DNA of 64,000 nucleotides from a virus. The notes below the pieces were generated by a model. The model was not told the origin of the DNA. It was given only the letters and a program-made list of their open reading frames with translations, and made no database searches. Location of the stretch: IMG/VR virus record IMGVR_UViG_3300031963_000004, positions 62,001-126,000 of that record. The stretch is one strand, 5' to 3'. Each line of letters begins with the position of its first letter. The first letter of the stretch is position 1. The position numbers and the translations under genes are program-made. This document shows positions 3,728 through 64,000 of this stretch, piece after piece.

Positions 3728-3752
3728 AGTTTTTCCCAAAATGCTTATATTG

Positions 3753-31709: not shown

Positions 31710-31942
31710 TCGTACTTTAACTTATAATATGTAAATTGCTCATCAGTCATCGTAGCTTCAATTGTATATTCCCAACCCCACGATATTGGTCTTGTACCTC
31801 TATGCCAAGTAGGGTCAATAGTATTTTCCATAACCCATTTACCTTTTTCTGATTGCTCAAATTCTACTAAATTTTGTGCAGCCCATAAATCAGGATCTTC
31901 AACGTCTCCCATATGAAATTGATGAACTACTACTTTTTTCAT
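31706..31942 (-). CDS. Small conserved hypothetical protein
   Basis: 78 aa: MKKVVVHQFHMGDVEDPDLWAAQ, then a WHRGTRP...WGWEYTIEATMTDEQ stretch. Overlaps the genes on both sides by 4 nt (thyA upstream). Seen in T4-like phages, function unknown. Confidence 0.7.
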   Translation of the reverse strand: MKKVVVHQFHMGDVEDPDLWAAQNLVEFEQSEKGKWVMENTIDPTWHRGTRPISWGWEYTIEATMTDEQFTYYKLKYE

Positions 31943-32796
31943 ACTGCCATTGTAGCTTTAATAGGCTCATGACATTGATAATCTTCTAAATGAATATCTT
32001 CCATTGTAAATTGTTCAATATCTTTAATATCAAAATTCAAGAATAATCTTGGCAAAGGATATTCTTCTCTTGAAAGCTGTTCTTTTACCTGTTCAACATG
32101 ATCCTTATAAATGTGTGTGTCACCCATACTAATTATTAGTTCACCTACTTTATATTTGCAAACGTGAGCAATCATGTGTGTAAGTAACGCATAACTTGCT
32201 ATGTTAAAAGGTAATCCTAAAAATACATCAACACTACGTTGATACATATGGCAGCTTAATTCATTATTCTTGTTAACGTAAAATTGACTCATTACATGAC
32301 AAGGAGGTAGTGCCATATCTTCTAATTCAGCAACGTTCCATGAACTAAGTATGTGACGCCTGCTATGTGGATCTTCTTTTAATTGAGTTATTAAAGTTTG
32401 TAATTGGTCTATAGCAACACGCACCGGTGGCTTATCAGTTTTTACCCAATCACGCCATTGTACTCCATAGATACGACCAAGATCGCCTTCAAACTTTGCT
32501 TTATGTTTCCAATACGGTGCAAGTGCGTTCCATGTCCATATTGTTACTGCACCATCACGTGTACCGTGTGTTATTTCTGCAAGTCTACGCTCGTCACTTG
32601 AGCCTTCAATGAACCAAAGTAGTTCACCGACGCAAGCTTTCCAAGCCAACTTTTTAGTTGTGATGGCTGGAAAGCCCCTACGCAAATCAAAGCGAATACT
32701 ACGTCCAAACACACTATAAGTGCCAACACCAGTTCTATCATCTCTGACCTCTCCGTTCTCTAAAATATCTTCTAATAAGTCATGATACTGTTTCAT
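31939..32796 (-). CDS. thyA: Thymidylate synthase ThyA
   Basis: 285 aa. All family landmarks: VRDDRTGVGTYSVFG, LGRIYGVQWRDW, DPHSRRHILSSWN, the catalytic Cys166 in ALPPCHVMSQFY, and LPFNIASYALLTHM. Converts dUMP to dTMP with methylene-tetrahydrofolate, raising dTTP for phage DNA synthesis. Operon with 31706 and 32793 through 4-nt overlaps. Confidence 0.96.
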   Translation of the reverse strand: MKQYHDLLEDILENGEVRDDRTGVGTYSVFGRSIRFDLRRGFPAITTKKLAWKACVGELLWFIEGSSDERRLAEITHGTRDGAVTIWTWNALAPYWKHKAKFEGDLGRIYGVQWRDWVKTDKPPVRVAIDQLQTLITQLKEDPHSRRHILSSWNVAELEDMALPPCHVMSQFYVNKNNELSCHMYQRSVDVFLGLPFNIASYALLTHMIAHVCKYKVGELIISMGDTHIYKDHVEQVKEQLSREEYPLPRLFLNFDIKDIEQFTMEDIHLEDYQCHEPIKATMAV

Positions 32797-38724: not shown

Positions 38725-39891
38725 TTAATTATTTCGCCAGTACTCACTAGCAGTGGCGACACCGCTACCTGGGACGACTTTAATACCAGTATCAAGCATA
38801 GCCATTTCTGCTCCGGCTATAGCAGCCATTAAGTGTACTTCATTCATATCACCTAGATGACCTATGCGGAAAAGCTTACCTGCTACTTTACTAAGTCCTG
38901 CACCCAATGATAGGTTATAGCGTTTGTATGCTCTACTAATAACATCACTACCATTAAATCCTTCAGGTACTATAATTGCTGATACTGTGTCACTATACCA
39001 TTTTGGATCTTTGGCACATAAGTCTAGTTGCCAACCGTCAATTACTGCACGGCGAACGCCTTCTGCAAGATAGTGATGGCGTTTAACAATATTATCTAGA
39101 CCTTCTTCTTCAATCATATTAAGTGCTTCTGCAAGTCCATATAACAATGACAATGCAGGTGTATATGGAAAATAACCAGTTGCATTAGAATTAACCATAT
39201 CAGTTAAATCAAAGTAACTGCGTGATGATTTTGCAGATTTGGTTTTATCCAACGCCTTTTTACTAGCACATAATATACCTAATCCAGCAGGTAACATGAA
39301 CCCTTTTTGTGATCCTGTTACTGCCATGTCAACACCCCATTCATCAAATTTAAAATCTAATGACCCAAGTGAACTTACAGCATCAACAAATAATAATGCA
39401 GGGTGATCACATTCGTTCAGCGCCCAACGCACTTCACTAATACTTGATGTGACTCCCGTAGCAGTTTCATTGTGACATGCTAACACTGCTTTGATTTCTT
39501 GATTTTTATCGTTTGCTAATATTTCAGCAAACTTAGCGGATGGGATACCTGTACCCCACTCGCAGTCTACGATTTCTACATCTAATCCATGTTTTAAACA
39601 CATTTCTATCCAGAGATGACTGAACTGGCCAAATCGTGCAGCTAGAACTTTGTCACCGGGACTTAGTGTATTTGTTATTGCGGCTTCCCAGCATCCTGTA
39701 CCAGATGAGGGGAAAATAAAGGGTGTTCCGTGTTCTGTACGGAATACCTTCTTTAATTTTGGAAATAATTGTGCCGAAAGTTCAGGAAACTTCGGTGAGC
39801 GATGGTCTTCCATAGACACCATCATTGCTCTCATAATACGATCAGGGATGTTTGTAGGCCCAGGTACAAACAAGAAATTACGACCAGCCAT
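38725..39891 (-). CDS. Serine/alanine-glyoxylate aminotransferase-like enzyme
   Basis: 388 aa, class V PLP aminotransferase, full length. Starts with the family signature FLFVPGPTNIPDRIMRAM. PLP-site residues: SSGTGCWEA (62-70), HNETATGV (140-147), Asp170 in LFVDAVSSLGS, and Lys196 in TGSQKGFMLPAGL. Closest to betaproteobacterial serine-glyoxylate aminotransferases from memory. It would transfer the amino group of serine or alanine to glyoxylate, giving glycine plus hydroxypyruvate or pyruvate. An unusual auxiliary metabolic gene; AGGAG, own terminator, no late element. Confidence 0.9.
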   Translation of the reverse strand: MAGRNFLFVPGPTNIPDRIMRAMMVSMEDHRSPKFPELSAQLFPKLKKVFRTEHGTPFIFPSSGTGCWEAAITNTLSPGDKVLAARFGQFSHLWIEMCLKHGLDVEIVDCEWGTGIPSAKFAEILANDKNQEIKAVLACHNETATGVTSSISEVRWALNECDHPALLFVDAVSSLGSLDFKFDEWGVDMAVTGSQKGFMLPAGLGILCASKKALDKTKSAKSSRSYFDLTDMVNSNATGYFPYTPALSLLYGLAEALNMIEEEGLDNIVKRHHYLAEGVRRAVIDGWQLDLCAKDPKWYSDTVSAIIVPEGFNGSDVISRAYKRYNLSLGAGLSKVAGKLFRIGHLGDMNEVHLMAAIAGAEMAMLDTGIKVVPGSGVATASEYWRNN

Positions 39892-50486: not shown

Positions 50487-50546
50487 ACTATAACTATTAA
50501 ATATTTATTGCAAATGAATATTTTTTATTTAAAGGAGACACACAGT

Positions 50547-51572
50547 ATGAAAAAGGTATTTGCATTATTAACCTTAATGGTTTCACAAGTCGCAATGTCA
50601 GCAGAATTTACTGGGGCAGGTGCGACTTTTCCATATCCGATTTACGCAAAGTGGGCAGAAGCTTATAAAGCACAAACTGGGATAGGATTGAATTATCAGA
50701 GCATTGGTAGTGGTGGCGGTATTCGTCAAATCAAAGCAAAAACAGTTGACTTTGGTGCAAGTGATATGCCATTAAAACCAGAAGAACTTGAGAAAGAAGG
50801 ACTAGTGCAATTTCCAGCTATCATAGGTGGAGTTGTTCCAGTTGTAAACTTAGATGGTATACAAGGTGGTCAACTAAAATTAACAAGTGATGTTATTGCT
50901 AACATACATTTAGGTAAAATTACTAAATGGAATGACAAAGCTATTGCCGAAATAAATCCTGGAGTTACATTACCTGCATTAAATATCACAGTCGTACATC
51001 GTGCAGATGGATCAGGTACAACATTTATTTGGACAAATTATCTAAGCAAAGCAAACGCAGACTTTCAAAAAACAGTAGGCGAGGGCACAGCAGTTAAATG
51101 GCCAGTAGGTGTAGGTGGTAAAGGTAATGAAGGTGTAGCAGCGCAAGTTCAGCGCATCAAAGGTGCTTTTGGTTATGTAGAATATGCATATGCTAAAAGA
51201 AACAAAATCGCACATACGCAATTAAAAAATCGTGATGGCAATTTTATTCAACCAGATGACAGTACATTCAAAGCAGCAACAGCTAATGCAGACTGGAATA
51301 ATGCTCCTGGCATGTACTTATTATTAACTTGGCAAACAGGCAAAGACGCATGGCCTGCAACTGGCGCAAGTTTTATTCTAATGCACAAACAACAAGCAGA
51401 TGCATTAACTGGTCGTGCTATTTTGAAATTCTTTGATTGGAGTTACAAAAATGGTAGCAAGATGAGTGAAGAATTAGAATATGTTCACTTACCACAGTCA
51501 GTTATTAAGTTGATACAAGAAAACTGGCGCCGTGACTTCAAAGGTCCAGATGGTAACGCAATTTGGAAATAA
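50547..51572 (+). CDS. pstS: Phosphate-binding protein PstS
   Basis: 341 aa from ATG 50547 with AAAGGAG. Sec signal peptide MKKVFALLTLMVSQVAMSA. Mature start EFTGAGATFPYPIYAKWAEAYK, then NYQSIGSGGGIRQIKAKTVDFGASD, HRADGSGTTFIWTNYLSKA, GNEGVAAQVQ and FGYVEYAYA are all PstS signatures with the phosphate-contacting Ser/Thr/Asp/Arg residues. It captures phosphate in the periplasm for the host Pst ABC transporter. Known auxiliary gene in marine cyanophages; here followed 9 nt on by a porin gene. Confidence 0.95.
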   Translation: MKKVFALLTLMVSQVAMSAEFTGAGATFPYPIYAKWAEAYKAQTGIGLNYQSIGSGGGIRQIKAKTVDFGASDMPLKPEELEKEGLVQFPAIIGGVVPVVNLDGIQGGQLKLTSDVIANIHLGKITKWNDKAIAEINPGVTLPALNITVVHRADGSGTTFIWTNYLSKANADFQKTVGEGTAVKWPVGVGGKGNEGVAAQVQRIKGAFGYVEYAYAKRNKIAHTQLKNRDGNFIQPDDSTFKAATANADWNNAPGMYLLLTWQTGKDAWPATGASFILMHKQQADALTGRAILKFFDWSYKNGSKMSEELEYVHLPQSVIKLIQENWRRDFKGPDGNAIWK

Positions 51573-51581
51573 GGGAAAATC

Positions 51582-52988
51582 ATGAAAAAATTTGCAAAAT
51601 TAAGTATTATATTAGCATTAGCAACTGCAATACCTGCTTTTGCTGATGAGTACAAAGAAACATTAAGTATTCTTAGAGATAAAGGCATTCTTACACAACA
51701 AGAGTATAATTCTAAACTCCAAGCATATGAAGAAAGAGAAGAAAACAAAAAGTTTGCAGAACAAAGAATCGACAAAGATGTTAGCGATAACAACAAGTGG
51801 AGACAAGCTAGAGCAAACGATGGTTCAGTTACCGAAAACGGGATCGGACTCAAAAGTAAAGATGGAAACAATACCATCCAACTTACAGGTAGACTTCATA
51901 TGGACTATCGTCAGTACGACCCCGCTTATGGTGCAGGTCAAACCACAGATTCGTATCAGAACCTAGCAGAAGTTCGTCGTGCTAGATTTGGTGTACGTGG
52001 ACAGTTCGCCAAAGACTTTAGATATCAGTTACTTGCTAACTTCGGCAATGAAGTAGGTGCCTCTGCAACTACTACAACAGCAGATGAAATGTGGGTAAAC
52101 TATGCTGCTAATCCTGAAATGCAATTTCAGTTTGGTTTGTTTAAAATGCCTTTTAGTTTAGAACAATTAACAAGCTCTAACAATATTGATTTTATGGAGC
52201 GTAGTTTAATTGGTAATACTGATGGTGAGTTTATACCAGGAAAAGAAACTGGCTTTATGTTACATGGTATTCCTAAGCCTGGTCTACTCTATCAAGTAGC
52301 ACTAAGCCGTGGTCGTGCTAACAAAGATGCATCTAATGATGGCTTTGATTACATCGGTCGTGTTGTAACAAACGTAGCCGAATTACAAGGTAGCAAAGCA
52401 TATGTATTACACTTAGGTGCAGCATATAGCACAGGCGAAGTTAAAGGTGGTGTTACACCAGCAAGCGGTAGAACAGAATCACGCAGTCAATCAGCATGGT
52501 TCACAGGTCCAGCGTTAAGTGGTACTACTACAAGAACACGCCAAGGTCTTGAAGCAGCATTTGCTTATAATGGTCTAAAGGTACAAGGTGAACAGTTCCA
52601 ATTCAATTATGATCCTACTACAGGTAACGATCAGAAAATAAATGGATACTATGTGCAAGCTTTGTATAACTTGACAGGCGAAAGTCACAACTACAAAGAT
52701 GGTATCTTTAATTGGATCAAACCTAACAACCCAACTGATAAAGGTGGTAAGGGTGCATGGCAGGTAGGTGTGCGTATCAGCGAGTTTGATGCTAGTGATA
52801 TTACTGTAGTTACTGGCAAATCAAATCGTGCTACTGCTATGACTTATGGAGTTACTTGGTTCTGTACAGATAATCTACGCTTTATGTTAAACTACGTAGA
52901 CACAAAGTTTGACAGTCTTGTAGGTAGCTCAGGTAGTCGTGTAAACGGTGACAGAGCAATCATGTTCAGGAGTCAGTTAAGCTTCTAA
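51582..52988 (+). CDS. Phosphate-selective porin O/P family outer-membrane porin
   Basis: 468 aa with a Sec signal (MKKFAKLSIILALATAIPAFA). An N-terminal coiled-coil EYKETLSILRDKGILTQQEYNSKLQAYEE is followed by beta-barrel strands: IQLTGRLHMDYRQYDPAY, RRARFGVRGQFAKDFRYQLLANFG, GLFKMPFSLEQLTSSNNIDFMERS. It ends RSQLSF with a terminal Phe, the barrel-assembly signal. These match the OprP/OprO porin family (Porin_O_P). It would let phosphate or polyphosphate across the outer membrane to PstS. A phage-encoded porin is unusual. A strong terminator follows; the two genes form one operon. Confidence 0.88.
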   Translation: MKKFAKLSIILALATAIPAFADEYKETLSILRDKGILTQQEYNSKLQAYEEREENKKFAEQRIDKDVSDNNKWRQARANDGSVTENGIGLKSKDGNNTIQLTGRLHMDYRQYDPAYGAGQTTDSYQNLAEVRRARFGVRGQFAKDFRYQLLANFGNEVGASATTTTADEMWVNYAANPEMQFQFGLFKMPFSLEQLTSSNNIDFMERSLIGNTDGEFIPGKETGFMLHGIPKPGLLYQVALSRGRANKDASNDGFDYIGRVVTNVAELQGSKAYVLHLGAAYSTGEVKGGVTPASGRTESRSQSAWFTGPALSGTTTRTRQGLEAAFAYNGLKVQGEQFQFNYDPTTGNDQKINGYYVQALYNLTGESHNYKDGIFNWIKPNNPTDKGGKGAWQVGVRISEFDASDITVVTGKSNRATAMTYGVTWFCTDNLRFMLNYVDTKFDSLVGSSGSRVNGDRAIMFRSQLSF

Positions 52989-52991
52989 AAT

Positions 52992-53012
52992 AAGCCCTTC
53001 GGGGCTTTTTTA
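52992..53012 (+). terminator. Rho-independent terminator after porin
   Basis: AAGCCC-TTCG-GGGCTT hairpin followed by TTTTT, 4 nt after the porin stop. Confidence 0.9.
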
Positions 53013-53017
53013 ATGGA

Positions 53018-53025
53018 GATAAATA
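53018..53025 (+). promoter_or_regulatory. Late promoter element GATAAATA
   Basis: GATAAATA on the plus strand, 8 nt before ATG 53034 and just after the terminator. It marks the following gene as a new late unit. Confidence 0.5.
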
Positions 53026-53033
53026 GACATATC

Positions 53034-53678
53034 ATGCTCCCAACAATAGCTTTATTTTTACACCAACCTAAGTGTTCAGTGCAAAGCGGAAATGGGATTA
53101 TCAAAGCATTAAGCCCACACTTTAGATTCAAGATTTTCACAAAACATGAACTAGAGGATGACTTTTTTGATGATGTGGATATTATTGCAGTTCCCGGAGG
53201 AATCGGAGACAGCGATACTTACAAATATCTGATGAAAATTCATGCTCAGTCCATACGGAACTTTGTCGCATCAGGTGGAAAGTACTTAGGAATTTGTATG
53301 GGTGCTTATTGGGCCGACACTGAATACTTAGGGCTATTGAATACGACAAGAGTGGTTCAATATATAAAAAGACCAGGTACCGACACACGCCGACCCCACG
53401 CAAAAAACATTCAAATCACATGGGAAAACAATCCTATGAATATGTACTTCTTTGACGGGTGTGCTTTGGTCGGGGATGAGAGTAAATTTGAAACTATCGC
53501 TAGATACAAGAACGGCGATCCAATGGCTATTATTCAAGATAATGTCGGATTAATAGGTTGTCATCCAGAGAGTGAAAAGCATTGGTATGATGGTTATAGT
53601 TGGATGCGTAGACATTATCATAACAACACTCATGGTAAATTATTGTTGGATTTTACATATCGCTTACTAAAGAAATAA
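53034..53678 (+). CDS. Class I glutamine amidotransferase-like (BPL_N) protein
   Basis: 214 aa from ATG 53034; a start at 53013 would lie between terminator and promoter and is disfavoured. Rossmann-like: VPGGIGDSDTYKYL, the nucleophile elbow GGKYLGICMGAYWA (Cys88) and GLIGCHPESEKHW (His177, Glu179), which form a Cys-His-Glu triad. This is the layout of type 1 GATase-like or biotin-ligase N-terminal-domain proteins. The substrate is unknown and no synthetase partner is adjacent; a stand-alone peptidase or amidase is possible. Confidence 0.82.
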   Translation: MLPTIALFLHQPKCSVQSGNGIIKALSPHFRFKIFTKHELEDDFFDDVDIIAVPGGIGDSDTYKYLMKIHAQSIRNFVASGGKYLGICMGAYWADTEYLGLLNTTRVVQYIKRPGTDTRRPHAKNIQITWENNPMNMYFFDGCALVGDESKFETIARYKNGDPMAIIQDNVGLIGCHPESEKHWYDGYSWMRRHYHNNTHGKLLLDFTYRLLKK

Positions 53679-54095: not shown

Positions 54096-54101
54096 GTTAA
54101 A

Positions 54102-54123
54102 AATAGGGACCGAAGTCCCTATT
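54102..54123 (-). terminator. Terminator of the tmRNA gene
   Basis: 9-bp stem AATAGGGAC/GTCCCTATT with a TTCG loop followed by a T-run on the minus strand. Confidence 0.85.
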
Positions 54124-54433
54124 ACTATTTTTGGTAACAAGGGATAGTTCCCCCGGAGATCATGCTGCTAGAGCAAAAACCTCATCGTTAGCTGCGTTTG
54201 CAGTTATAATTTTGCTTGATTTACGGTCATCGCCTACCGTGCTGTCCACTCGCCTACTCTTGACCCTGTCGAAACCATGTCTGGCCCATCAAAAGCAAGT
54301 TGGAGCTACTTATTATACCAACATTCAGGAACCGTAGCGGCCGCACAGTATCCGAAGCCATTTGCTTTTGGTGGACCAGGCGGGAGTCGAACCCGCGTCC
54401 AGAACCCTTTTGGGGTTGCTTCATACAGCAATA
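54124..54433 (-). ncRNA. ssrA: Circularly permuted (two-piece) tmRNA
   Basis: Read on the minus strand, the 5' segment ends with a T-arm (GCGGG-TTCGACT-CCCGC) and acceptor strand CTGGTCC-A-CCA (CCA at 54371-54369). The 5' half of the acceptor stem, GGGCCAG, starts downstream at 54287 and is followed by ACATGGTTTCGACAGGG, the conserved tmRNA 5' sequence. The two halves pair in 7 bp and place a G3-U70 wobble, the alanyl-tRNA identity signal. The tag frame (54201-54160) encodes ANAANDEVFALAA then TGA. The intervening segment (54288-54368) has complementary AAAAGCAA/TTGCTTTT ends, a likely processing stem. Piece ends are approximate. Rescues stalled ribosomes and tags their products for proteolysis. 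Confidence 0.93.
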
Positions 54434-54439
54434 ACCTGT

Positions 54440-54468
54440 AGTTTATATTTATTCGGAAAGATTGTCAA
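54440..54468 (-). promoter_or_regulatory. Promoter of the tmRNA gene
   Basis: Minus strand TTGACA (54468-54463), 17-bp spacer, TAAACT (54445-54440). The spacer also contains AATAAATA, a possible late element, so early and late transcription are both possible. Confidence 0.65.
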
Positions 54469-54472
54469 CAAA

Positions 54473-54667
54473 TTAGGGTTTCTTAACTTGTTGTTCGGGC
54501 ACACAAAATGCGGTCATGTTTGGTCTATTGTGTGTGATGCTACGTGCGACTTCTAAACATTCTTCCATTCTGTCAAATGTTTTCCATTGACTTTCATGGA
54601 TATGTCCTGAGATAATAACAGCAACAATTAATACATAATTCACATATAATTCCCGGTTATATGTCAT
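54473..54667 (-). CDS. Small two-cysteine membrane/exported protein
   Basis: 64 aa: a polar first 8 residues, then hydrophobic YVNYVLIVAVIISG, TFDRMEECLEVA and TAFCVPEQQ. It belongs to the five-member small-protein set described at 12077. Stop lies 5 nt from the tmRNA promoter. Function unknown. Confidence 0.6.
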   Translation of the reverse strand: MTYNRELYVNYVLIVAVIISGHIHESQWKTFDRMEECLEVARSITHNRPNMTAFCVPEQQVKKP

Positions 54668-54834: not shown

Positions 54835-57800
54835 TTACGGGTATAAATTATCGTAGTACTCTTTGATCCAAGCCCAGTCATAGGTTAATCTTAGTTTCTC
54901 AAAGTCACCCTTAACACTTTCATAATACTTGACCGCTTCGTTTGCACCCTTCAAGCAATATTCGCTGTATTCTCCGGTAGCCACGGTAAGCCAAATGTCA
55001 AGTCTTTCTTTGTTTTCTTCAGATCCTATAGTTTCTACGCTATGCTTAAGTTTGACTACTTCTCTAAAAGCAGTTCTCCAAGTATCCCATTTGCTTGTAT
55101 TAAACCGACTAATCCCTGAATTAATATTAACAACTTCGTGTTCACTGTCAAGTGTAAAGTCTAGACCCTTAACAATAGTATTAAGTGTCAACTTTTTATT
55201 GTTGGCGACAATAGCTTGGTGACCATATTCTAATCCATTTAATGGGTTAGTAGCAGTAAAGATATAATGCTTTGGTATCTGTAATCTATCTGGTTGCCAA
55301 TCAAAATTAAAATCTTCATTGACTTTAAGCTTTGCGTTCACTAAGAAATACCAAGGTGTGTTTGACATTCTAGCTGCTTCATGTTGACTAGCTACACGAC
55401 CTTTAATACCATCAACACCTACTACTATGTTAGGCAAGTCTTTTGCTATATTCAACAGATGTTCGTAGTTTTCTTCCGCGCAAGCTTCACCATTACTAAA
55501 GAAAACAATATCTAATGGTTTGCTTTGCGATAATTTTTTACTTGTGATTATATATGGATAATCGTAAATTTCTTTCTTAACAAACTTACTTGTTTCTTTG
55601 GGAGCAATGATTCTACTTGCACCTGTACTTGTGATTATAACAGTTTTATCTTCTGCTTTCCATAATGACATTGTATCAATATCTTCATGCCTCATGTTTT
55701 TATTATCTGCTGTAATAAGAACTTGATATGGAAAGTCTACTTGATTGTGAATGCTATTAACCAAAGTATCATCATCTACTATAGTAACAGGAGCAGGCAA
55801 TCTTGGAACTGATTGCTCACCTTTAAAATTTATTTCAGGGTAATCATCTAACTTTTTAATAATTGGTAAAAACATTCTTAATTCATTCACATTTACTAAG
55901 AATGTGTCACCGAACTTTTGATTATTACTAGCAAACACATACATCTGTTCGCTTGTACCTGTATCAAACGTCTGAGTAAAATCAAAATTACTATAATCAC
56001 AAATTGAACTACATATCCAAATATAATGCTCGTTCTTAGTAGGCAATGATTCTACAATAGAAAAGAACGTCTGATAGTAATCTGTGTCGTGTGGGATAAC
56101 TGTGATATTTCTGTTTGGAACTCTGTCTTTTAAAGTTTCTAAACAAGTGTGTTGATTGCCAAAATCAATTAGATAAATGTCATGCAATGATTCTTTTATC
56201 TTAGCCTCTTTGTTAACAAAGTTTAGCATAGACATATCTTCAAGTAGTTTATCTTTTTTATATTCAATAAGATATGAATCCTTATTTACAAGATAAGTGT
56301 AACCCCACTGAGTCCATTGGGTCTTAAATACGTGAAGCATTCTTGTTTGCCAAATACTAGGATAGTAGTTAAAATCAAAATCAGCATAATCAATCTCGCT
56401 ACTTAAAACCCAAAACAGTTTAGTTTTAGACTTGTTGGCACAACTAGCAATTACTTCAGCCCAGCCGTTAGCGAATCTTGTTTTCTTTATTTGAGGAAAC
56501 TTTTCTTGTAGTATTTCAAAATTTTCTAAACTATCCTTATTCATTCTATCAATATAAAACATATCTAGTTTAGAATCTACATCAATTTCTAGTTCAGAAA
56601 CATAATTATACTGTATTTTTTCTTTACAGTGTTTTTCAATAACAAAGTACGTCTGTAGGTCTAGGCTCTCTTTGTTTCCAAAAACATGCACATATGGGGA
56701 TTCATAATCTTCGGGTTCCCAACTAAAATCAAACTTGTCGTAATTTAATTCAGCGTTTAGGGCCCAAAACATTTCATCAGGATGTTGTTTAATTAAATCC
56801 TCAAGTGTAGTTTCAATATAATATTTTTTGATGTTTTTGTTAATTAATTTTACAATAGGATTAGCAACAAACTTTGTCTGCGTTGCACCTTCTATTTTAT
56901 ATTCTAACACATATTTTAAATTATCTCTATACTCATTTTTGACTCCAAATTTGTAGATATAGGGAGGGTCTCTATCATCATGATGCCAACTATAATCGAA
57001 TAAAATTTCATCAGTAGTTAACTTTGTAAATCTTGATTCATCCGGCAATTTGATTGCTGCTTGAAATGTTTGATATTTAATACCTTCATAATCAGCAACC
57101 ACATAAACAGGACCACCCGTATTTTGCCATTGTGTGCCAAACATATGTAAGTAAGGTTCGTCTTTTCTTGGTTCCCAACTGAAATCAAACTTACTTACAT
57201 CTAGACCTTTAGGCACTGCCCAAAAATTATCTTCAGGGAATTCATTTATTAAATCATCTAAATCGGTTTCAATATAATGAATTACCGTATCAGATGATTT
57301 TTTTGCTATCTGAAATGTTTGATATTTTACTCCCATATAATTAGGAACGATAAGTGCAGGTCCTGCATCTTGATTCCATTGCGTACCAAACTGATGTAAA
57401 TACGGAGGTTCTCCTATAGGAGGTTCCCAACTATAATCAAAATCTTCATCATTTAAATTTTCAGGTACTACCCAAAAAGTTTCAGTTCTATGTTCAGATA
57501 TTATTTTTTGTAACGTATTAATTTTATCTAATGTATATTTTTTAAGTGGTATTTTAGCTGCTAAAGGATAATCATGATACTTGTAACCTTTATTAGAAGG
57601 TACTACATATGCAGGTCCATCTGATGTATTAAATCTCGTACCGAATTGATGAATATAAGGAGGGTCATATCTGTTAGGTACCCACGTAAAATCAAATGAT
57701 TCTTTGTCTATATTGTTAGGTACTGCCCAAAATGCATCACTAGGATATTCGTAAATTAAATCCTCAACTGTCGTAGTATCATCTATTTCATAAATAGGAA

Positions 57801-58497
57801 CCATACACTTTCGTAATGCTTTTTGACTTTGCTGATACTTAGTACCTTGATTATTCGGTACTACATAGCAAGGTCCTCCATCAGAGTCCCATTGTGTTCC
57901 AAATACATGAACATATGGAGGTTCATGTTTATTCGGCATCCAACCAAAGTCAAAGTTTGATACATCTACGTTAACAGGCACAGCCCAAAATTCTGTATCA
58001 AAGTATAAGCTAACTAACTCTTTGAATTCTTTTTGAGAGGAAAATGTAAGGATAGGAGGAATTTTATATTTTAAGTCTATTGAAATATACTTTTGTTTTT
58101 CAGCGCCCTCTACATGATATTCTGCAACAATTTTTTCTTCTTCATCTATTGAACCAATAAAAATATACACGAAGGGTTCTTCAGTGTCATCAGGATGCCA
58201 GCTAAAGTCAAAATCTAATTTATCATTTTTAATAAAAAAGTTTTCTTTATGTTGCAAATGTCTTACTGTTTGAAAGTCATGGTACTTAACACCTTCACTT
58301 TCGGGAATTACAAACTTAGGTCCGCCAGTTTTCTGCCATTGTGTTCCAAACTGATGCGTATAAGGTCTGTCATAGTAACTAGGTCTCCATGAAAAGTCAA
58401 AGCCCTCAGTATCAACATTATCGGGGATAACCCAATAACCTTGTTCCCATAACTTAATTCTTTCTTCTATATCGTAATCTTTTTGTTCTACCATCAT
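54835..58497 (-). CDS. 1220-aa protein with eleven FDFxWxP repeats, GT-like C-terminus
   Basis: Start ATG 58497 (ATGA overlap with the carbamoyltransferase stop, AAAGGTG upstream). Eleven copies of a unit containing FWAVPxNVDxxxFDFSWxP then PPYxHxFGTQW and GGPxYVVPxxxGxKYQ can be seen. Two copies are a variant type (HPDDTEEPFVYIF, HHDDRDPPYIYKF, each followed by EGA). The C-terminal 260 residues (VGVDGIKG...WYFLVNAKLKVNEDFNFDWQP, then SKWDTWRTAFREVVKL) align with the glycosyltransferase-like gene at 63-64 kb, but without its DGD motif. So the repeats look like multiplied, non-catalytic copies of one module. Function unknown. Confidence 0.8.
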   Translation of the reverse strand: MMVEQKDYDIEERIKLWEQGYWVIPDNVDTEGFDFSWRPSYYDRPYTHQFGTQWQKTGGPKFVIPESEGVKYHDFQTVRHLQHKENFFIKNDKLDFDFSWHPDDTEEPFVYIFIGSIDEEEKIVAEYHVEGAEKQKYISIDLKYKIPPILTFSSQKEFKELVSLYFDTEFWAVPVNVDVSNFDFGWMPNKHEPPYVHVFGTQWDSDGGPCYVVPNNQGTKYQQSQKALRKCMVPIYEIDDTTTVEDLIYEYPSDAFWAVPNNIDKESFDFTWVPNRYDPPYIHQFGTRFNTSDGPAYVVPSNKGYKYHDYPLAAKIPLKKYTLDKINTLQKIISEHRTETFWVVPENLNDEDFDYSWEPPIGEPPYLHQFGTQWNQDAGPALIVPNYMGVKYQTFQIAKKSSDTVIHYIETDLDDLINEFPEDNFWAVPKGLDVSKFDFSWEPRKDEPYLHMFGTQWQNTGGPVYVVADYEGIKYQTFQAAIKLPDESRFTKLTTDEILFDYSWHHDDRDPPYIYKFGVKNEYRDNLKYVLEYKIEGATQTKFVANPIVKLINKNIKKYYIETTLEDLIKQHPDEMFWALNAELNYDKFDFSWEPEDYESPYVHVFGNKESLDLQTYFVIEKHCKEKIQYNYVSELEIDVDSKLDMFYIDRMNKDSLENFEILQEKFPQIKKTRFANGWAEVIASCANKSKTKLFWVLSSEIDYADFDFNYYPSIWQTRMLHVFKTQWTQWGYTYLVNKDSYLIEYKKDKLLEDMSMLNFVNKEAKIKESLHDIYLIDFGNQHTCLETLKDRVPNRNITVIPHDTDYYQTFFSIVESLPTKNEHYIWICSSICDYSNFDFTQTFDTGTSEQMYVFASNNQKFGDTFLVNVNELRMFLPIIKKLDDYPEINFKGEQSVPRLPAPVTIVDDDTLVNSIHNQVDFPYQVLITADNKNMRHEDIDTMSLWKAEDKTVIITSTGASRIIAPKETSKFVKKEIYDYPYIITSKKLSQSKPLDIVFFSNGEACAEENYEHLLNIAKDLPNIVVGVDGIKGRVASQHEAARMSNTPWYFLVNAKLKVNEDFNFDWQPDRLQIPKHYIFTATNPLNGLEYGHQAIVANNKKLTLNTIVKGLDFTLDSEHEVVNINSGISRFNTSKWDTWRTAFREVVKLKHSVETIGSEENKERLDIWLTVATGEYSEYCLKGANEAVKYYESVKGDFEKLRLTYDWAWIKEYYDNLYP

Positions 58498-59984
58498 GAA
58501 CACACCTTTATTTTATATTTGCTTTGAAATCTATCTGCATCTGCTCTATCATTTACCATTGGTTCACCTTTGATATTAAGTGAGGTGTTTAATAACATAG
58601 GACAACCTGTATGATAATGCCAAAATTCTAATAACTCTCTAATACCTGATCCGTCTTTAGGTACAGTCTGTACTCTACTTGTATTATCATGGTGTACGAT
58701 AGCAGGAAACTTTTCTGGATATTTACAGTTAGCAACTATTTGCATGTATCTACTATCTACCCAACATTTAGGCATATCAAAATATTCATTTGCATATTCT
58801 TCTAATATTACGGGTGCAAATGGTCTAAACTTTTGCCTACGCTTAATTTCATTTACTTTATCTTTTATTTCATTCCCTCTAGGATCAGCTAATAAACTGC
58901 GATTGCCTAATGCCCTAGGTCCAAACTCAGCACGACCTGAAGCTACACCCACTATCTTGTTTTTCTTAAGTTCATCATATAAATCTACAGTAGGATAATG
59001 CCCTTTTATGTTATGACCAAGATAAGCATTCTTCCAATTTAAATTACGCCCATAACCTAGTGCTGCTGCTCCTAAACTGCTACCTGCATCACCTGGATTA
59101 GGCATAATCCAAACTTTGTCAAAATATTTACCTAGTATTCTGTTAGCCAAACAATTTAATGCAACGCCACCACCGTATACTAAGTTATTACTATAACCTT
59201 TTTCTTTGCACAGTGTTAACGCTACTTCTAACATTTCTTCTAAAAACTTCTGCGCACTAGCTGCTATATCCATTTCATTAGCATGATGCAAGAAGCTATG
59301 GCGTTCGTCTATACCAGTATGTAAGTTTTCTTTGAATTCAAAATTGTTTTTATCGTATACAAATGATTCAAACATTTGTTCGGTGTATGTAGGGTTGCCA
59401 TAAGCAGCCATACCCATCATAATGTATTCTTCATCCATCGGATGTAAACCTACATGTTGTGTCATAGCACTGTAGAATAAGCCTAAGCTATTTGGATATT
59501 TTTTTGTATACAGATTTTTATATATAGCTTTACCATTACGGTCATAATCTGCATCCCAAATTGATATTGTGTCAAATTCTCCGATAGCATCTATTATTAA
59601 TACCGTAGCATTATTGAACGGACTTGTTTGAAAACCTGCTGCTGCATGGCTTAAATGATGATTGTGATAGTGTAACTTTTTCTTACCTAATCTTTTTTGA
59701 ACTTCTTTACCTATTAATCTTGTTTTACTAAAAACAGAGAAATCTAGTGGTTCACCTGATCGCAATGACCTTAAGAATCGTAAATAAGGTCTTTCGTAAT
59801 AATGTAAATCATGCCCTGAGGAAGAATGTTTTAGTACGTCCGTAATTAAATGAACGTTTAAGTTTGGGTCATTTTTAATTTTGCTATATCTTTCGCTGTG
59901 ACCAGCGAAAAGAATATTACCACGGTCGTCTATTAAACTGACCGCTGCATCATGAAATCCGTTGCTTATGCCTATAAAATTCAT
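58494..59984 (-). CDS. Carbamoyltransferase (NodU/TobZ/HypF-like)
   Basis: 496 aa. N-terminal Kae1-like half: MNFIGISNGFHDAAVSLIDD, HHLSHAAAGFQTSPF (metal-binding His) and VLIIDAIGEFDTISIW. Then YGGGVALNCLANRIL, PNPGDAGSSLGAAAL and the C-terminal GRAEFGPRALGNRSLLADPR, RPFAPVILEEYA. These are family hallmarks. It uses carbamoyl phosphate and ATP to carbamoylate a hydroxyl of a sugar or natural product. The acceptor is unknown; neighbours suggest a glycan or modified peptide. Confidence 0.9.
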   Translation of the reverse strand: MNFIGISNGFHDAAVSLIDDRGNILFAGHSERYSKIKNDPNLNVHLITDVLKHSSSGHDLHYYERPYLRFLRSLRSGEPLDFSVFSKTRLIGKEVQKRLGKKKLHYHNHHLSHAAAGFQTSPFNNATVLIIDAIGEFDTISIWDADYDRNGKAIYKNLYTKKYPNSLGLFYSAMTQHVGLHPMDEEYIMMGMAAYGNPTYTEQMFESFVYDKNNFEFKENLHTGIDERHSFLHHANEMDIAASAQKFLEEMLEVALTLCKEKGYSNNLVYGGGVALNCLANRILGKYFDKVWIMPNPGDAGSSLGAAALGYGRNLNWKNAYLGHNIKGHYPTVDLYDELKKNKIVGVASGRAEFGPRALGNRSLLADPRGNEIKDKVNEIKRRQKFRPFAPVILEEYANEYFDMPKCWVDSRYMQIVANCKYPEKFPAIVHHDNTSRVQTVPKDGSGIRELLEFWHYHTGCPMLLNTSLNIKGEPMVNDRADADRFQSKYKIKVCS

Positions 59985-60082
59985 TTGTAAATAAATGGAT
60001 CACGTTTTCTTGCTTCTCTTAATTTTTTTCTGTGTAATAATTCTCTGCGAATTTTATTTAAAATCATTCTAATAAAATACAT
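59981..60082 (-). CDS. 33-aa basic peptide
   Basis: ATG 60082 reads MYFIRMILNKIRRELLHRKK followed by LREARKRDPFIYK and TGA, which overlaps the carbamoyltransferase ATG (ATGA). Fourteen Lys/Arg/His residues in 33. Too short for a typical gene but well coupled. It could be a regulator or the substrate of the neighbouring enzymes; unknown. Confidence 0.5.
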   Translation of the reverse strand: MYFIRMILNKIRRELLHRKKLREARKRDPFIYK

Positions 60083-60086
60083 AATT

Positions 60087-60902
60087 TTACCTTAGATGCT
60101 CAACTTTCCAGTCTTGATATGGCAATAACCCTGCATTGACATAATCCATATATTGTTGAATAGTGTTAACAGGTTTTAATAAATTTTTCTTAAATTTATC
60201 CATACTTATATGATCTACTTTTTTAGTTTTTACTGCTTCTACTAACATGTTAGACAAAATTTCAAGATTCGGAATACTCATATGATTATCCCTTAAATCA
60301 ATTTGTGTTTTCTTTATCCAATTATAGTAAGCAGTTTCTGGTTTATCTGAAATTAATTCTTCATTGCATATTGTAAGCAATTCAATGTTTGGTCGTAAAA
60401 AATTATCTAGTTCTTTTGCAAAAGAAACATTTACAGTGATATTACTATTCATGAGAAAGATAAACGTAACCTTAGGTAGTTTTTCTGCGATATTTCTTAC
60501 TAAATGAGTCATTGCCTCATGAGTCACAGTTTCTATATACCCATCTTGATTAGCAACAAACCATTCTAAATATTTTTTATTTTCTCTGTACCATTCATGT
60601 TTTGGTAACTTATAATCTGAGACTGGATGTAAATATACCGCTGCCGTTTCAGGTCTTTCTTTTTGAAATTCTAATTTTAATCTTCCCGGAGTACTTCTGC
60701 AAAATACAACCACATCACCGTCTACAAAACGTTCATAATCTTCAAGTAAGCATTTTAAGGCATGCTCAGTACTACCCCCAGTCATTGCTTTGTTTTTAAT
60801 TTTACATCCTAACTTAATTGCAAATCTACTGGGCCAATCTAAATTTTGTATGGGAGTAGAAGCAGAAGCAAAACTATCTCCATAAACATATACAGTATTC
60901 AT
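60087..60902 (-). CDS. SGNH/GDSL-type hydrolase-like protein
   Basis: 271 aa. Block I YVYGDSFASAS with candidate nucleophile Ser10, a Gly/Asn-type AMTGGSTEHAL segment near 40, and DNHMSIPN (205-212) as a possible block V, though the Asp-His spacing is not canonical. Such enzymes de-esterify or acetylate sugars. It lies between the radical SAM genes and the carbamoyltransferase. Confidence 0.7.
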   Translation of the reverse strand: MNTVYVYGDSFASASTPIQNLDWPSRFAIKLGCKIKNKAMTGGSTEHALKCLLEDYERFVDGDVVVFCRSTPGRLKLEFQKERPETAAVYLHPVSDYKLPKHEWYRENKKYLEWFVANQDGYIETVTHEAMTHLVRNIAEKLPKVTFIFLMNSNITVNVSFAKELDNFLRPNIELLTICNEELISDKPETAYYNWIKKTQIDLRDNHMSIPNLEILSNMLVEAVKTKKVDHISMDKFKKNLLKPVNTIQQYMDYVNAGLLPYQDWKVEHLR

Positions 60903-60903
60903 T

Positions 60904-61845
60904 TCAAATCCATTTACTTATATCAACATCACTAGAACAATGACAAATAGCATTTTTAGTGCAAACTACAGGCTTAGTTGGCCATATAATATCATCTGGT
61001 TTATTGATATTGCCTATAACTCCACCTACCCCGCAATTACCAAGATTAATATCGCCATTCCAATACACAAACATTGCCTTTATACCTATATCACAAGTAT
61101 AGTTGTAAAAGTTTGTCATTCCAGCATTTATGTAATCATTAGCTACTGGCATATAATGTTCTGTGCCATCATCAAAATAATATGTGTTATAATTAATTTG
61201 AGGATCTCTGATAAGTCGTTCTAGCTTTTCTTTTCTGTCTGTATACCCATTATTAGAAAAGAATTCTAATTGGTCTTTGTTATAAAGGTGCGCTTCTCTA
61301 TCTTTTCCAATCCAATCAGTTATTCTTACTGGCTCAACATTTAAACTAGGTATATCTAAAATCTTTTTATATAATTCCATTGACTGATCCCAGTATTTAG
61401 GATGCATCATTACTCTAACAGTTACATTTGTAATTTTACTACTAACTGTTACTTTTTCAATGAAGTCAGGATCAGGGAATTCAGGATGATATGAGAAACA
61501 AATGTAACTCATGTAGTATGCGATTTCTTCCCAATATCTTACAGTTCTTGCTGCGTTACTAGTCATTCCTATGCTATGATTTTTTTCATAGAGCATTTGA
61601 ACTAATTCTTTAAAGAAAGGACTTAAACTAGGTTCGCCACCTGTGATAGTTACATGAATTTTAGGATGTCTATCAAACAACATATGAAAGAATTTTTTAG
61701 CATTCTCCCATTCATAATGATGATTCTTACCCTCATGTAAATCGCTTGGGCAATAACTACACTTGTTTGTACAGATATTGTTTATTACCCAAGTTAAATG
61801 AAACGGTGCGTAATTAGGTTGTTCTATCCTTATTATCTTTTTCAT
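60904..61845 (-). CDS. Radical SAM enzyme with C-terminal Cys cluster
   Basis: 313 aa. CTNKCSYC (Cys25, 29, 32) binds the SAM [4Fe-4S] cluster; TITGGEPSLSP (69-72 GGEP) contacts SAM. The C-terminal third contains TCDIG, GNCGVGG, VCTKNAICHC (Cys295, 301, 303), like an auxiliary SPASM-type cluster region. Reaction unknown; SPASM-type enzymes often modify peptides or sugars. The start overlaps the next radical SAM gene by 4 nt. Confidence 0.88.
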   Translation of the reverse strand: MKKIIRIEQPNYAPFHLTWVINNICTNKCSYCPSDLHEGKNHHYEWENAKKFFHMLFDRHPKIHVTITGGEPSLSPFFKELVQMLYEKNHSIGMTSNAARTVRYWEEIAYYMSYICFSYHPEFPDPDFIEKVTVSSKITNVTVRVMMHPKYWDQSMELYKKILDIPSLNVEPVRITDWIGKDREAHLYNKDQLEFFSNNGYTDRKEKLERLIRDPQINYNTYYFDDGTEHYMPVANDYINAGMTNFYNYTCDIGIKAMFVYWNGDINLGNCGVGGVIGNINKPDDIIWPTKPVVCTKNAICHCSSDVDISKWI

Positions 61846-63173
61846 CTATATTTTCCAGGATACATTGTACGCAAGCACTCTAGCTCAGGTATTGTATCAA
61901 ATATACTTTCATCTCTTACTTGATCCACTTGATAGCTTGTTCTTAAAAACTTAATAGCATCTTTAGGATTATGAGGCTTTTTCAACTCATGTATTATTTG
62001 TGCAAAATGAGGTCCTATATCTGTTGAATACTTTTTATCGTATTCTCCGATATAACCATTGATTCTTTCAATGATAGAATCTTTAAACTCATCTGGTAAA
62101 ATATGAACGTGATAATAACTAGGTTGTTCAAGTAGATTAATGAAGAAGTTTTTATACCAAAGCTTTTCTTTAATAACACCCAACTCTAGCAATTTATCAA
62201 TTATCTCAGGTAGTCTGAATACGTTCATAGCACCAATAGTTAATCCAGGTCTGACTATAAGATTATCCAATTTAGTCATTGCTATAAGATTTTCTTCTAC
62301 TTTAGGCCATATAGTACCGCTGCGAATTAACTCTGCTCTTGCACCTATCTCATCAATACTAGGCCAAATTTCTAACTTACCGTAATCCCATTGACTCCAG
62401 TAATCTAACACATTCTTTTTACCATATTCTAATACTGAACAGTTTGTATTATATGAAAGCTTAACGTCGAAACGTTTACCTTCAACTAACATATCAAGTA
62501 TCTGCCAATGCTCAGGCATTAACAATGGTTCACCACCTGCAAAGTAAATCTTCTCTACATGTTGAACCTGATCCTGTAAGAAATCATAGTTAGTTTGTTG
62601 ACCGACTGCATCAATATTCCAAACTTTTTCCTGATCAGTGTAGCCTAATTTCTTTGCATCAGGTACCCATGCTGAACTATATCTTGGCCCACAGCTACGA
62701 CATTTAAAATTACACAGATTACTAAATCTAAAGTCCCAATACTTTAATTTCATTTCATTACAAGTACCATCTTTTTCTGTAATGACTGGAATCTTTTTTA
62801 ATACTGATTTGAATTCACGGTTGTGATATATTCTACCACTTTCACCTGTAACTTTTTCTTTGTCGTAACACTTTCTACATATCTCAGGCTCCTCGTTGTT
62901 CATCATCTGTACACGGAGATTTTTCATATTGTCGCTGTTCCAAATCTGATCAATTGTTTGATGAGTTAGGTCGCCAGCAAAATAATTATATGTAGAAGTT
63001 AAGCAGCAAGGAACTACTTTACCGTTTGGTTCAAAGTTTAAGTGCATCCACGGGACTGCACATATTTTATTGTCTGTCTCTTTCATTAGCTTTCTGTATC
63101 TCCGTTTAGCATATTTGTACAACTGTGTGTTTAATAAAAATCTTTTAATCTTAACTTTAAGTGGAACTGACAT
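61842..63173 (-). CDS. Twitch-domain radical SAM enzyme
   Basis: 443 aa. N-terminal Cys-rich part: ICAVPWMHLNFEPNGKVVPCC and CRKCYDKE (Cys38, 56, 57, 99, 102), the inserted Twitch-like auxiliary cluster; then FSNLCNFKCRSCGPRYSSAW (Cys154, 158, 161) and YFAGGEPLL (213-216). Fits twitch-domain radical SAM proteins of uncharacterised function. It could share substrate with 60904. The stop of the upstream gene shares one base with its ATG. Confidence 0.88.
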   Translation of the reverse strand: MSVPLKVKIKRFLLNTQLYKYAKRRYRKLMKETDNKICAVPWMHLNFEPNGKVVPCCLTSTYNYFAGDLTHQTIDQIWNSDNMKNLRVQMMNNEEPEICRKCYDKEKVTGESGRIYHNREFKSVLKKIPVITEKDGTCNEMKLKYWDFRFSNLCNFKCRSCGPRYSSAWVPDAKKLGYTDQEKVWNIDAVGQQTNYDFLQDQVQHVEKIYFAGGEPLLMPEHWQILDMLVEGKRFDVKLSYNTNCSVLEYGKKNVLDYWSQWDYGKLEIWPSIDEIGARAELIRSGTIWPKVEENLIAMTKLDNLIVRPGLTIGAMNVFRLPEIIDKLLELGVIKEKLWYKNFFINLLEQPSYYHVHILPDEFKDSIIERINGYIGEYDKKYSTDIGPHFAQIIHELKKPHNPKDAIKFLRTSYQVDQVRDESIFDTIPELECLRTMYPGKYR

Positions 63174-64000
63174 TACCAGCCTTCAATTTTCCGTATAATG
63201 TCCATTTCTCTGACTAAGGGACCTAAATTATATTTATCGGCATTATAGTGTCGTTTGAAGAACTTCGATTGTTCTGCACTTAACGCACACATAGGTAACC
63301 CTAACTTGTCAGACAATAACTCGGCTAATTGTTTAGGTTCATTATGTTCAAATGTGTCCCATAACTTTACTAGTTCATCAAAATCTTGAACTTTGTTATA
63401 GTCCCACTCAGTTAGCATAGTCAAATATGTTCCTAATCTTGCACCATAGATAGCCCATTCACCGTTCTCAACATCCATACCCACATTCTGCCATATAGTA
63501 AGATTATTAAGATTTCTACTCGCTACACTTTCTTTAAATGAACTAATACTTGGTTTATTGCCCACTACTAGGCACATCTTTACACCTTCTCTAAATCCTG
63601 CACGCCAAGCTTGAAATGGTGTATAGTTAGGATACGTGGTTGAATAACAATCATACATGCTCCAGTATATATTGTCACTACTATCTAAACAAAAATCAAC
63701 CGTCGTCGCCGCACCGCCGTCACTATTTTCGTGTGTTCGCATATTCATGACGTAAGTTTTAGTCCAACTACTCATGCCACCATTACCGTAACGTAAACCG
63801 TTAACAGCATTAATTGCTCTCCAACGATATTGTGCGATTTGATAGGTAGGGTGTTTATCAGTGAAATCTAAATCTAAATCAAAGAATGACGGATCAGGCA
63901 TATTGTCACCGTCGATTAATATAAATCTTTCTGTGTCGCTTGCCTCTGCTGCTGCTTTGTGTGCGGCATCACTTCCCTTAACTCCATCTACTCTTTTAGC
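63173..64000 (-). CDS. Glycosyltransferase-like protein (5' end outside window)
   Basis: The frame is open to base 64000; the ATG at 63901 is internal. The visible part begins AKRVDGVKGSDAAHKAAAEA, then RFILIDGDNMPDPSFFDLDL, which places a DGD motif as in GT-A nucleotide-sugar transferases, and continues to RKIEGW. Its AWRAGFREGVKM and following IWQNVGMD region recurs in the C-terminus of the 1220-aa protein, so the two ends of this cassette are related. Likely a glycosyltransferase or derivative. Confidence 0.7.
   Translation of the reverse strand, partial: AKRVDGVKGSDAAHKAAAEASDTERFILIDGDNMPDPSFFDLDLDFTDKHPTYQIAQYRWRAINAVNGLRYGNGGMSSWTKTYVMNMRTHENSDGGAATTVDFCLDSSDNIYWSMYDCYSTTYPNYTPFQAWRAGFREGVKMCLVVGNKPSISSFKESVASRNLNNLTIWQNVGMDVENGEWAIYGARLGTYLTMLTEWDYNKVQDFDELVKLWDTFEHNEPKQLAELLSDKLGLPMCALSAEQSKFFKRHYNADKYNLGPLVREMDIIRKIEGW

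Follow-up and report, generated by a model that had tools for sequence, protein, structure and literature searches.

A candidate virion-glycan tailoring cassette in a viral tail-fiber operon and the short peptide that accompanies its carbamoyltransferase

Results

The 64,000-nt stretch of viral DNA analyzed here (the window) comes from a large aquatic phage and comprises positions 62001-126000 of the 223,151-base IMG/VR virus record IMGVR_UViG_3300031963_000004. At its end lies a minus-strand cassette of seven genes encoding a GT-A-type glycosyltransferase-like protein, two radical S-adenosylmethionine (SAM) proteins, an SGNH-like protein, a 33-residue basic peptide, a carbamoyltransferase and a long repeat protein (Table 1). 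The glycosyltransferase-like part of the cassette follows tail-fiber genes in a fixed order across related viral loci, and the peptide is paired with one clade of carbamoyltransferases. The cassette would glycosylate a virion protein in the cytoplasm and tailor the glycan, with a fiber as the probable target; this is put forward tentatively, at somewhat less than an even chance. A sequence-only reading of the window had suggested a cassette for glycosylation, carbamoylation and radical tailoring, a proposal supported by the gene families, the linkage to fibers and sugar-nucleotide genes in related loci.

Operon organization and gene order

The sequence-only reading had described at least seven tightly overlapping genes as an operon. 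All seven were found in the list of open reading frames (ORFs) where it had placed them, on the minus strand and with intergenic gaps of -10 to +4 nt, and therefore look like a single transcription unit. The glycosyltransferase-like gene that it had left open at base 64000 closes at 64105 (window numbering continued past the end), and the minus-strand operon runs on to position 66319, directly following tail-fiber genes. Read in the upstream direction, the 310-residue glycosyltransferase-like protein (to 64105) is succeeded by proteins of 100 (p100), 267, 266 and 115 (p115) residues, of which those of 267 and 266 residues are also glycosyltransferase-like and the last reaches 66319; fiber-like genes continue up to 70089. 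A 629-residue fiber-like protein with a glycine-rich domain (PF21722) adjoins the 115-residue gene, more fiber and tail genes lie upstream, and gaps range from -26 to +11 nt as far as a 404-residue fiber-like gene. The fiber gene just upstream of the cassette occupies 66326-68215 in window numbering, past the window end. Late-promoter-like TAAATA sites were located 18 and 28 nt ahead of two fiber genes, and gene upstream regions of this phage genome show a ~25-fold enrichment of related octamers (GATAAATA, ATAAATAC). The operon terminus adjoins a convergent phosphate/porin region and a transfer-messenger RNA (tmRNA).

Gene order was compared in two sets of 80 viral loci, one retrieved with the 310-residue protein and the other with the repeat protein. 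In the first set, a block was found in the order fiber, p115, GT1, GT2 (two glycosyltransferase-like proteins), p100, GT-A protein and N_Twi_rSAM (the longer radical SAM protein), with members present in 79, 74, 80, 80, 80, 80 and 78 loci, respectively. A distant relative (L019; proteins 24-52% identical) keeps the order fiber, p115, two glycosyltransferases, one intervening gene, GT-A protein, N_Twi_rSAM, a short repeat-protein homolog and carbamoyltransferase. Loci of the second set carried the carbamoyltransferase in 50/80 cases and N_Twi_rSAM in 45/80. Frequent neighbors in related loci encode an NAD-dependent epimerase, a DegT aminotransferase, a UDP-sugar (UDPG) dehydrogenase and a B12-type radical SAM protein. 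Homologs of the NAD-dependent epimerase and the thymidylate synthase encoded elsewhere in the window adjoin the carbamoyltransferase/repeat-protein cassette in five related loci (L015-L018, L023).

The gene set thus co-occurs in dozens of other viral contigs, with a constant core surrounded by a variable island. Chance is not a sufficient explanation, because the genes co-occur in other contigs and the 33-residue peptide is under purifying selection. The two outcomes that the sequence-only reading had named as fatal to its proposal, genes scattered among relatives or a known O-antigen locus, were not observed, since the genes keep company and no membrane flippase, polymerase or ligase accompanies them.

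Carbamoyltransferase and its peptide partner

The enzyme called a carbamoyltransferase from sequence matched both Pfam domains of the family (N- and C-terminal domains, E 1.8e-38 and 4.6e-50; 133.3 and 169.9 bits against cut-offs of 24 and 27) and phrog_1601 (E 3.1e-99). Homologs in the PDB are NovN, GdmN and TobZ, and the protein was aligned to NovN. Residues H11, H109, H113, D132 and D299 and the FGPRALGNRS stretch are conserved in 7 relatives; by analogy with TobZ, we take the His and Asp residues to have catalytic or metal-binding roles. In the carbamoyltransferase tree, whose bootstrap is not fully settled and in which several outgroup branches are long (that of the metaGPA enzyme among them), the peptide-paired enzymes form one clade (support 98/99) with phage C48C1 basal, and the cyanophage and pelagiphage Nol proteins and the DNA-modifying metaGPA enzyme fall outside it. 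The bacterial version is rare, because a close carbamoyltransferase was present in only 1/297 Actinomycetota genomes, that one being the search center itself.

The 33-residue peptide (MYFIRMILNKIRRELLHRKKLREARKRDPFIYK; C-terminus RKRDPFIYK), mentioned in passing by the sequence-only reading, proved to be the most unusual part of the cassette and a real gene, as judged by coding selection and by its pairing with the carbamoyltransferase. A profile of the peptide matched in 114/119 loci holding a carbamoyltransferase of this kind and in only 15/165 loci without a labeled one, most of these 15 being bacterial loci that carry the enzyme after all or loci cut near the peptide. Of the 88 distinct tails followed by a carbamoyltransferase, 59 immediately precede its gene and 15 are separated from it by one SGNH gene; the rest are separated by other genes. 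A second, independent scan starting from the carbamoyltransferase alone placed the peptide within 1.8 kb upstream in 76/80 cases, 48 of them immediately before the gene. The peptide hardly varies at its C-terminus but does so at its N-terminus. Entropies at codon positions 1, 2 and 3 were 0.74, 0.56 and 1.37 (D, P and Y were fixed by the search filter; third codon positions lay outside it), and it is therefore the peptide, and not the DNA, that is conserved.

The peptide is kept in >100 viral DNA fragments and a few bacteria (Actinobacteria, Binatota), and precedes the carbamoyltransferase in Actinomadura and in a Binataceae metagenome-assembled genome (MAG). The peptide also occurs as the C-terminal tail of larger proteins, namely a GDSL-type (SGNH) protein of Geodermatophilus, a DUF6071/SGNH-like protein of Antrihabitans and, in viral contig L187, the last of several tandem N_Twi_rSAM proteins (..RIRKQDPFIYE). 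A DPFIYP tail was also seen on a 151-residue protein of contig L330, and extra or decayed tails (KEPYIYK, ENPYNY) stand upstream of the carbamoyltransferase in L330, L339 and L342. No such tail was present at seven Nol loci examined in named phage records. A tblastn search with the peptide against phage and plasmid records gave no match, although the BLAST low-complexity filter may mask a query so rich in Lys and Arg; the peptide was also missing from the family libraries searched, and the letters DPFIY were not found in the open-access literature searched. An amphipathic-helix membrane anchor, considered as a possibility, gained no support from the phage peptide itself (hydrophobic moment not above shuffles, p 0.42); values above shuffles were obtained only for two tested bacterial peptides.

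The peptide may mark a novel type of carbamoyltransferase system, as an obligate microprotein or portable C-terminal tail of a carbamoyltransferase clade common to phages and bacteria, serving as a docking subunit or even as an acceptor or carrier, and joining this enzyme with the SGNH and radical SAM proteins in a glycan-tailoring complex on the GT-A repeat scaffold. This role is offered as a conjecture, plausible but with the balance still somewhat against it.

Glycosyltransferase-like proteins and the repeat protein

The glycosyltransferase-like call for the 310-residue protein was borne out by a confident GT-A-fold AlphaFold2 (AF2) model (pLDDT 92.4, pTM 0.90) and by a DxD motif (D65, D67) invariant among 41 relatives; the DxD of the 266-residue protein is likewise invariant. 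The top PDB match of the model is the capsid-glycosylating glycosyltransferase 2p6w of PBCV-1 (E 2.1e-4, with low TM-scores), and all matches with E < 0.001 are glycosyltransferases except for one nucleotidyltransferase, again with low TM-scores.

The repeat protein, previously given as 1220 residues, does consist of tandem repeats; it is 1222 residues long with its GTG start, and the repeats appear to be a degenerate glycosyltransferase array. A repeat hidden Markov model (HMM) found ~11 units in it and 1-35 in relatives of about 500 to 2784 residues, the short units centering on FWxVxxxxDxxxFDFxWxP. Its C-terminal domain is homologous to the 310-residue protein (hhalign 99.7%, E 1.2e-26) and complete, with AKL at the position of the DxD metal site. 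The AF2 model of the last 656 residues (pLDDT 89) comprises successive alpha/beta modules, with chondroitin polymerase, lysyl hydroxylase LH3, the peptide glycosyltransferases SunS/ThuS and the PBCV-1 glycosyltransferase as fold neighbors in the PDB. In a viral structure library full-length matches were obtained with two Caudovirales proteins (TM 0.88 and 0.84), and giant-virus multi-glycosyltransferase proteins rank next. These models suggest an array of degenerate modules derived from a GT-A core. Evidence for that derivation comes from structure, as sequence evidence was weak: an HMM of the N-terminal repeats reached the protein's own C-terminal domain only at an i-Evalue of 0.023, hhalign of the repeats against the 310-residue family gave no match, and homology argued from sequence alone was dropped.

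No Pfam or PHROG family matched the repeat protein, and no relative was confirmed in 84,980 bacterial/archaeal genomes or in 50,697 phage records; relatives were found in viral-type contigs only. A bacterial origin was rejected, no relative having been confirmed in those bacterial and archaeal genomes. Repeat-type proteins of the cassette do occur on four MAG contigs filed as Betaproteobacteria, Pelagibacter and Gammaproteobacteria (L285, L286, L290, L292), which look like misbinned phage DNA because at least L292 has phage homologs. An adhesin or cell-surface protein was also discarded, as the repeat protein has a GT-A-like fold and no predicted membrane span.

Radical SAM and SGNH-like proteins

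The 443-residue protein, read from sequence as a twitch radical SAM protein, belongs to the N_Twi_rSAM subfamily (NF033640, 356.5 bits against a cut-off of 170) and has invariant cysteines C38, C57, C99 and C102 in addition to C154/C158/C161. Tandem N_Twi_rSAM paralogs occur in related viral contigs in runs of 3-6 (e.g., L187:3458-11269). The 313-residue protein had been called SPASM-like. Its CxxxCxxC motif (C25/C29/C32) and five C-terminal cysteines (C251/C271/C295/C301/C303), as expected for auxiliary clusters, are invariant among relatives, but no SPASM Pfam domain matched, the matches being PF04055 and a sub-threshold Fer4_12. PADLOC matches to anti-phage defense proteins were weak, of viperin type and confined to the generic radical SAM core, and a defense function was rejected. 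The hydrolase call for the 271-residue protein stays putative: a GDS motif, the block-II Gly, Arg74 and His207 are conserved across 24 relatives, and two relatives weakly match GDSL families, but the protein itself had no HMM match in the family libraries, and an invariant Arg stands at block III.

Proposed function and alternatives

In the proposed scheme, the cassette would be the distal half of a late tail-fiber operon. Three GT-A-type glycosyltransferases (266, 267 and 310 residues) would build a glycan in the cytoplasm, to be tailored next by the two radical SAM enzymes (epimerization or oxidation), the SGNH enzyme (acyl transfer or removal) and the carbamoyltransferase (carbamoylation). 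The repeat protein, as a mostly non-catalytic GT-A-derived array, would probably hold the growing glycan or a repetitive fiber substrate, and the peptide may act as a docking tag or small subunit, its C-terminal RDPFIY tail joining the carbamoyltransferase to SGNH and radical SAM partners. The likeliest product would be a decorated virion protein, foremost the fiber encoded just upstream. A cytoplasmic protein target is favored because the genes lie in a late fiber operon, because the GT-A enzymes come without export machinery, and because the nearest fold is that of a capsid-protein glycosyltransferase. No ORF with at least four predicted membrane spans was present among 1355 ORFs in the spans examined (own and related), while TctA-type and MFS-type controls scored 9 and 12; Wzx/Wzy/GtrB-type export is thus absent there. 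A desaturase-like ORF at genome positions 3041-3745, with three predicted spans, is the sole ORF of at least 100 residues in this phage with at least three.

Several points weigh against this scheme. Enzyme activities and product are predictions from the genes. The GT-A models have no CAZy or Pfam family match, and their fold-match TM-scores are low (0.24-0.39); the SGNH assignment comes from motifs, and Arg replaces the canonical Asn of block III. The link to fibers is strong for the glycosyltransferase block and weak for the carbamoyltransferase, peptide and repeat protein, because many relatives hold the carbamoyltransferase and repeat protein away from recognizable fiber genes; a fiber gene lies within 10 kb in only 2/80 repeat-protein loci. 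The loci of one collection are not independent, and the co-occurrence counts are descriptive.

Alteration of host lipopolysaccharide (LPS) or capsule during infection, for superinfection exclusion or receptor masking, has been proposed for pelagimyophage and cyanophage LPS-like clusters and is the published interpretation of glycosyltransferase-rich host-recognition clusters (PMC7029224). The sugar-nucleotide genes of relatives would fit such a role, as would a bacterial carbamoyltransferase relative that adjoins a PAP2 phosphatase and a hexapeptide acyltransferase, in keeping with lipid-linked sugar chemistry. This explanation is nonetheless judged unlikely, as no flippase, polymerase, ligase, GtrB or membrane acyltransferase was found in any span examined, and a late fiber operon would act when a superinfection block is hardly useful. 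O-antigen assembly through a Wzx/Wzy or ABC locus was rejected because no membrane assembly gene was present in the spans of this phage or its relatives.

Two further explanations would move the chemistry to a peptide or to DNA. If the 33-residue peptide were the precursor or carrier of a ribosomally synthesized and post-translationally modified peptide (RiPP), the radical SAM enzymes would modify it and a carbamoyl group would be added. In favor are the two radical SAM proteins of SPASM/twitch type and the very small conserved peptide encoded beside the carbamoyltransferase; the invariant C-terminal Tyr could be an acceptor, and SunS/ThuS appear in the fold search with the repeat protein. Yet a conserved C-terminus with a variable N-terminus is the opposite of the usual leader/core pattern of a precursor, the identical tail ends whole enzymes, the cassette has no transporter or leader protease, and the peptide tracks the carbamoyltransferase clade rather than the radical SAM genes, few carbamoyltransferase-free loci having it; a RiPP is accordingly improbable. 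Least credible is DNA hypermodification, in which the carbamoyltransferase would act on 5-hydroxymethylcytosine like the metaGPA enzyme and the glycosyltransferases would decorate bases. A phage carbamoyltransferase with this activity exists (PMC8670742), and this phage genome does encode a thymidylate synthase. However, modified contigs mostly carry Asp at thymidylate synthase position 177, and carbamoyltransferases beside glycosyltransferases were in unmodified contigs (PMC8670742). The synthase here has Asn-177 in its LPFN motif (dUMP type, not dCMP type), no second thymidylate synthase-like ORF was found by motif, and the carbamoyltransferase shares 24.8% identity with the metaGPA enzyme but falls in a separate clade, the metaGPA row being a long branch. 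DNA hypermodification was rejected chiefly on the Asn-type synthase and the different enzyme clade.

Glycosylation of a virion protein therefore stays the favored, tentative explanation. A vaguely defined cassette yields three testable parts: a fiber-glycosyltransferase-radical SAM block across many uncultured phages, a phage-borne family of giant degenerate glycosyltransferase repeats, and a 33-residue peptide found alongside a single carbamoyltransferase clade in phages and as far as Actinobacteria. Should the carbamoyltransferase require this partner, annotations of many such enzymes omit it, and expression constructs might do so too. Should the fiber be the target, glycosylated and carbamoylated tail fibers would add to phage host recognition a layer that is widespread yet has gone unnoticed.

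Neighboring features

The major capsid protein is closest (65-67%) to those of the jumbo T4-superfamily phages Vibrio phage 2.275.O, Sinorhizobium phage Phosso and Pseudomonas phage PA5oct. The tmRNA beyond the operon terminus is of betaproteobacterial type (ARAGORN tag ANAANDEVFALAA) and hints that the host is a betaproteobacterium. In the phosphate-acquisition cassette, genes for a PstS-type phosphate-binding protein, an OprP/O-type porin and a BPL_N/GATase protein stand in a row; the porin is full-length, of outer-membrane type (PF07396, E 1.7e-54), and without a PHROG family. A class-V aminotransferase, serine-glyoxylate aminotransferase-like, is an unusual auxiliary gene. Past the window, the baseplate/tail region holds a single 5246-residue ORF (genome 132253-147993; 70253-85993 in window numbering).

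Table 1. Positions (window numbering) and supporting evidence for the cassette genes and other features.
Feature	Length (residues)	Position	Strand	Evidence
Tandem degenerate GT-A-like repeat protein (putative), GTG start	1222	54835..58503	-	Repeat HMM, AF2 model, fold search
Carbamoyltransferase, Nol/NodU-like	496	58494..59984	-	PF02543/PF16861, phrog_1601
Basic 'DPFIY' peptide	33	59981..60082	-	4-nt overlap with carbamoyltransferase start
SGNH/GDSL-like hydrolase or acyltransferase (putative)	271	60087..60902	-	Motifs only
Radical SAM protein, SPASM/twitch-like C-terminal cysteines	313	60904..61845	-	PF04055 (Radical_SAM), E 5.3e-12
N_Twi_rSAM twitch-domain radical SAM protein	443	61842..63173	-	NF033640; N-terminal SPASM PF13186, E 3.6e-15
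GT-A-fold glycosyltransferase-like protein	310	63173..64000 in window, 5' end at 64105	-	DxD, AF2 model
NAD-dependent epimerase		30744..31709	-	
Thymidylate synthase		31939..32796	-	
Class-V aminotransferase		38725..39891	-	PF00266, E 6.7e-25
Phosphate-acquisition cassette		50508..53678	+	
tmRNA, betaproteobacterial type		54100..54482	-	RF01850, 134.6 bits

Comparison with known systems

The sequence-only reading had held that no such phage system was familiar. This was too strong: the overall kind of cassette is known, because descriptions exist of pelagimyophage host-recognition clusters with glycosyltransferases and radical SAM cassettes (PMC7029224), and of LPS gene clusters and carbamoyltransferases in cyanophages (PMC3037559). 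As in the pelagimyophage and T4-like aquatic phage clusters, which PMC7029224 places in a hypervariable region beside tail fibers, the present cassette is glycosyltransferase-rich and adjoins tail-fiber genes. As differences, the capsid protein of this phage is closest to PA5oct/2.275.O-type jumbo phages, PMC7029224 makes no mention of carbamoyltransferase, and the passages found there do not report the fixed block, GT-A repeat protein or DPFIY peptide. A search of open-access papers and libraries gave no earlier report of these three features (block, repeat array and peptide pairing), although absence there is no proof of novelty.

The Nol-like carbamoyltransferases of P-SSM2, S-SSM7, HTVC008M and Mosig (PMC3037559) have the family in common by sequence (27-33% identity) but lie outside the paired clade, and the cyanophage and pelagiphage enzymes have no DPFIY peptide beside them. 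In Pelagibacter phage Mosig, an isolate, genes for a DegT-type aminotransferase, a MoaA-like radical SAM protein, a carbamoyltransferase and a methyltransferase stand side by side. The metaGPA 5-hydroxymethylcytosine carbamoyltransferase (PMC8670742) is of the same superfamily, with other neighbors; no dCMP hydroxymethylase-type thymidylate synthase was found here. Both domains of the natural-product O-carbamoyltransferases TobZ, NovN and GdmN align with the phage enzyme. These three act on antibiotics, and we know of no partner peptide for them. The 443-residue protein, at twice the NF033640 cut-off, shows no difference from N_Twi_rSAM, a subfamily for which, to our knowledge, no function has been reported.

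The 310-residue protein has the GT-A fold of RmlT and of the PBCV-1 glycosyltransferase 2p6w, described as involved in virus capsid protein glycosylation, although the match is weak (TM 0.24-0.33) and no sequence family is common to them. Chondroitin polymerase K4CP and heparosan synthase PmHS2 carry two active domains. The repeat protein resembles them in having more than one GT-A-like unit per chain, but differs in that it and its relatives combine 1-35 short, degenerate units with a C-terminal domain without DxD.

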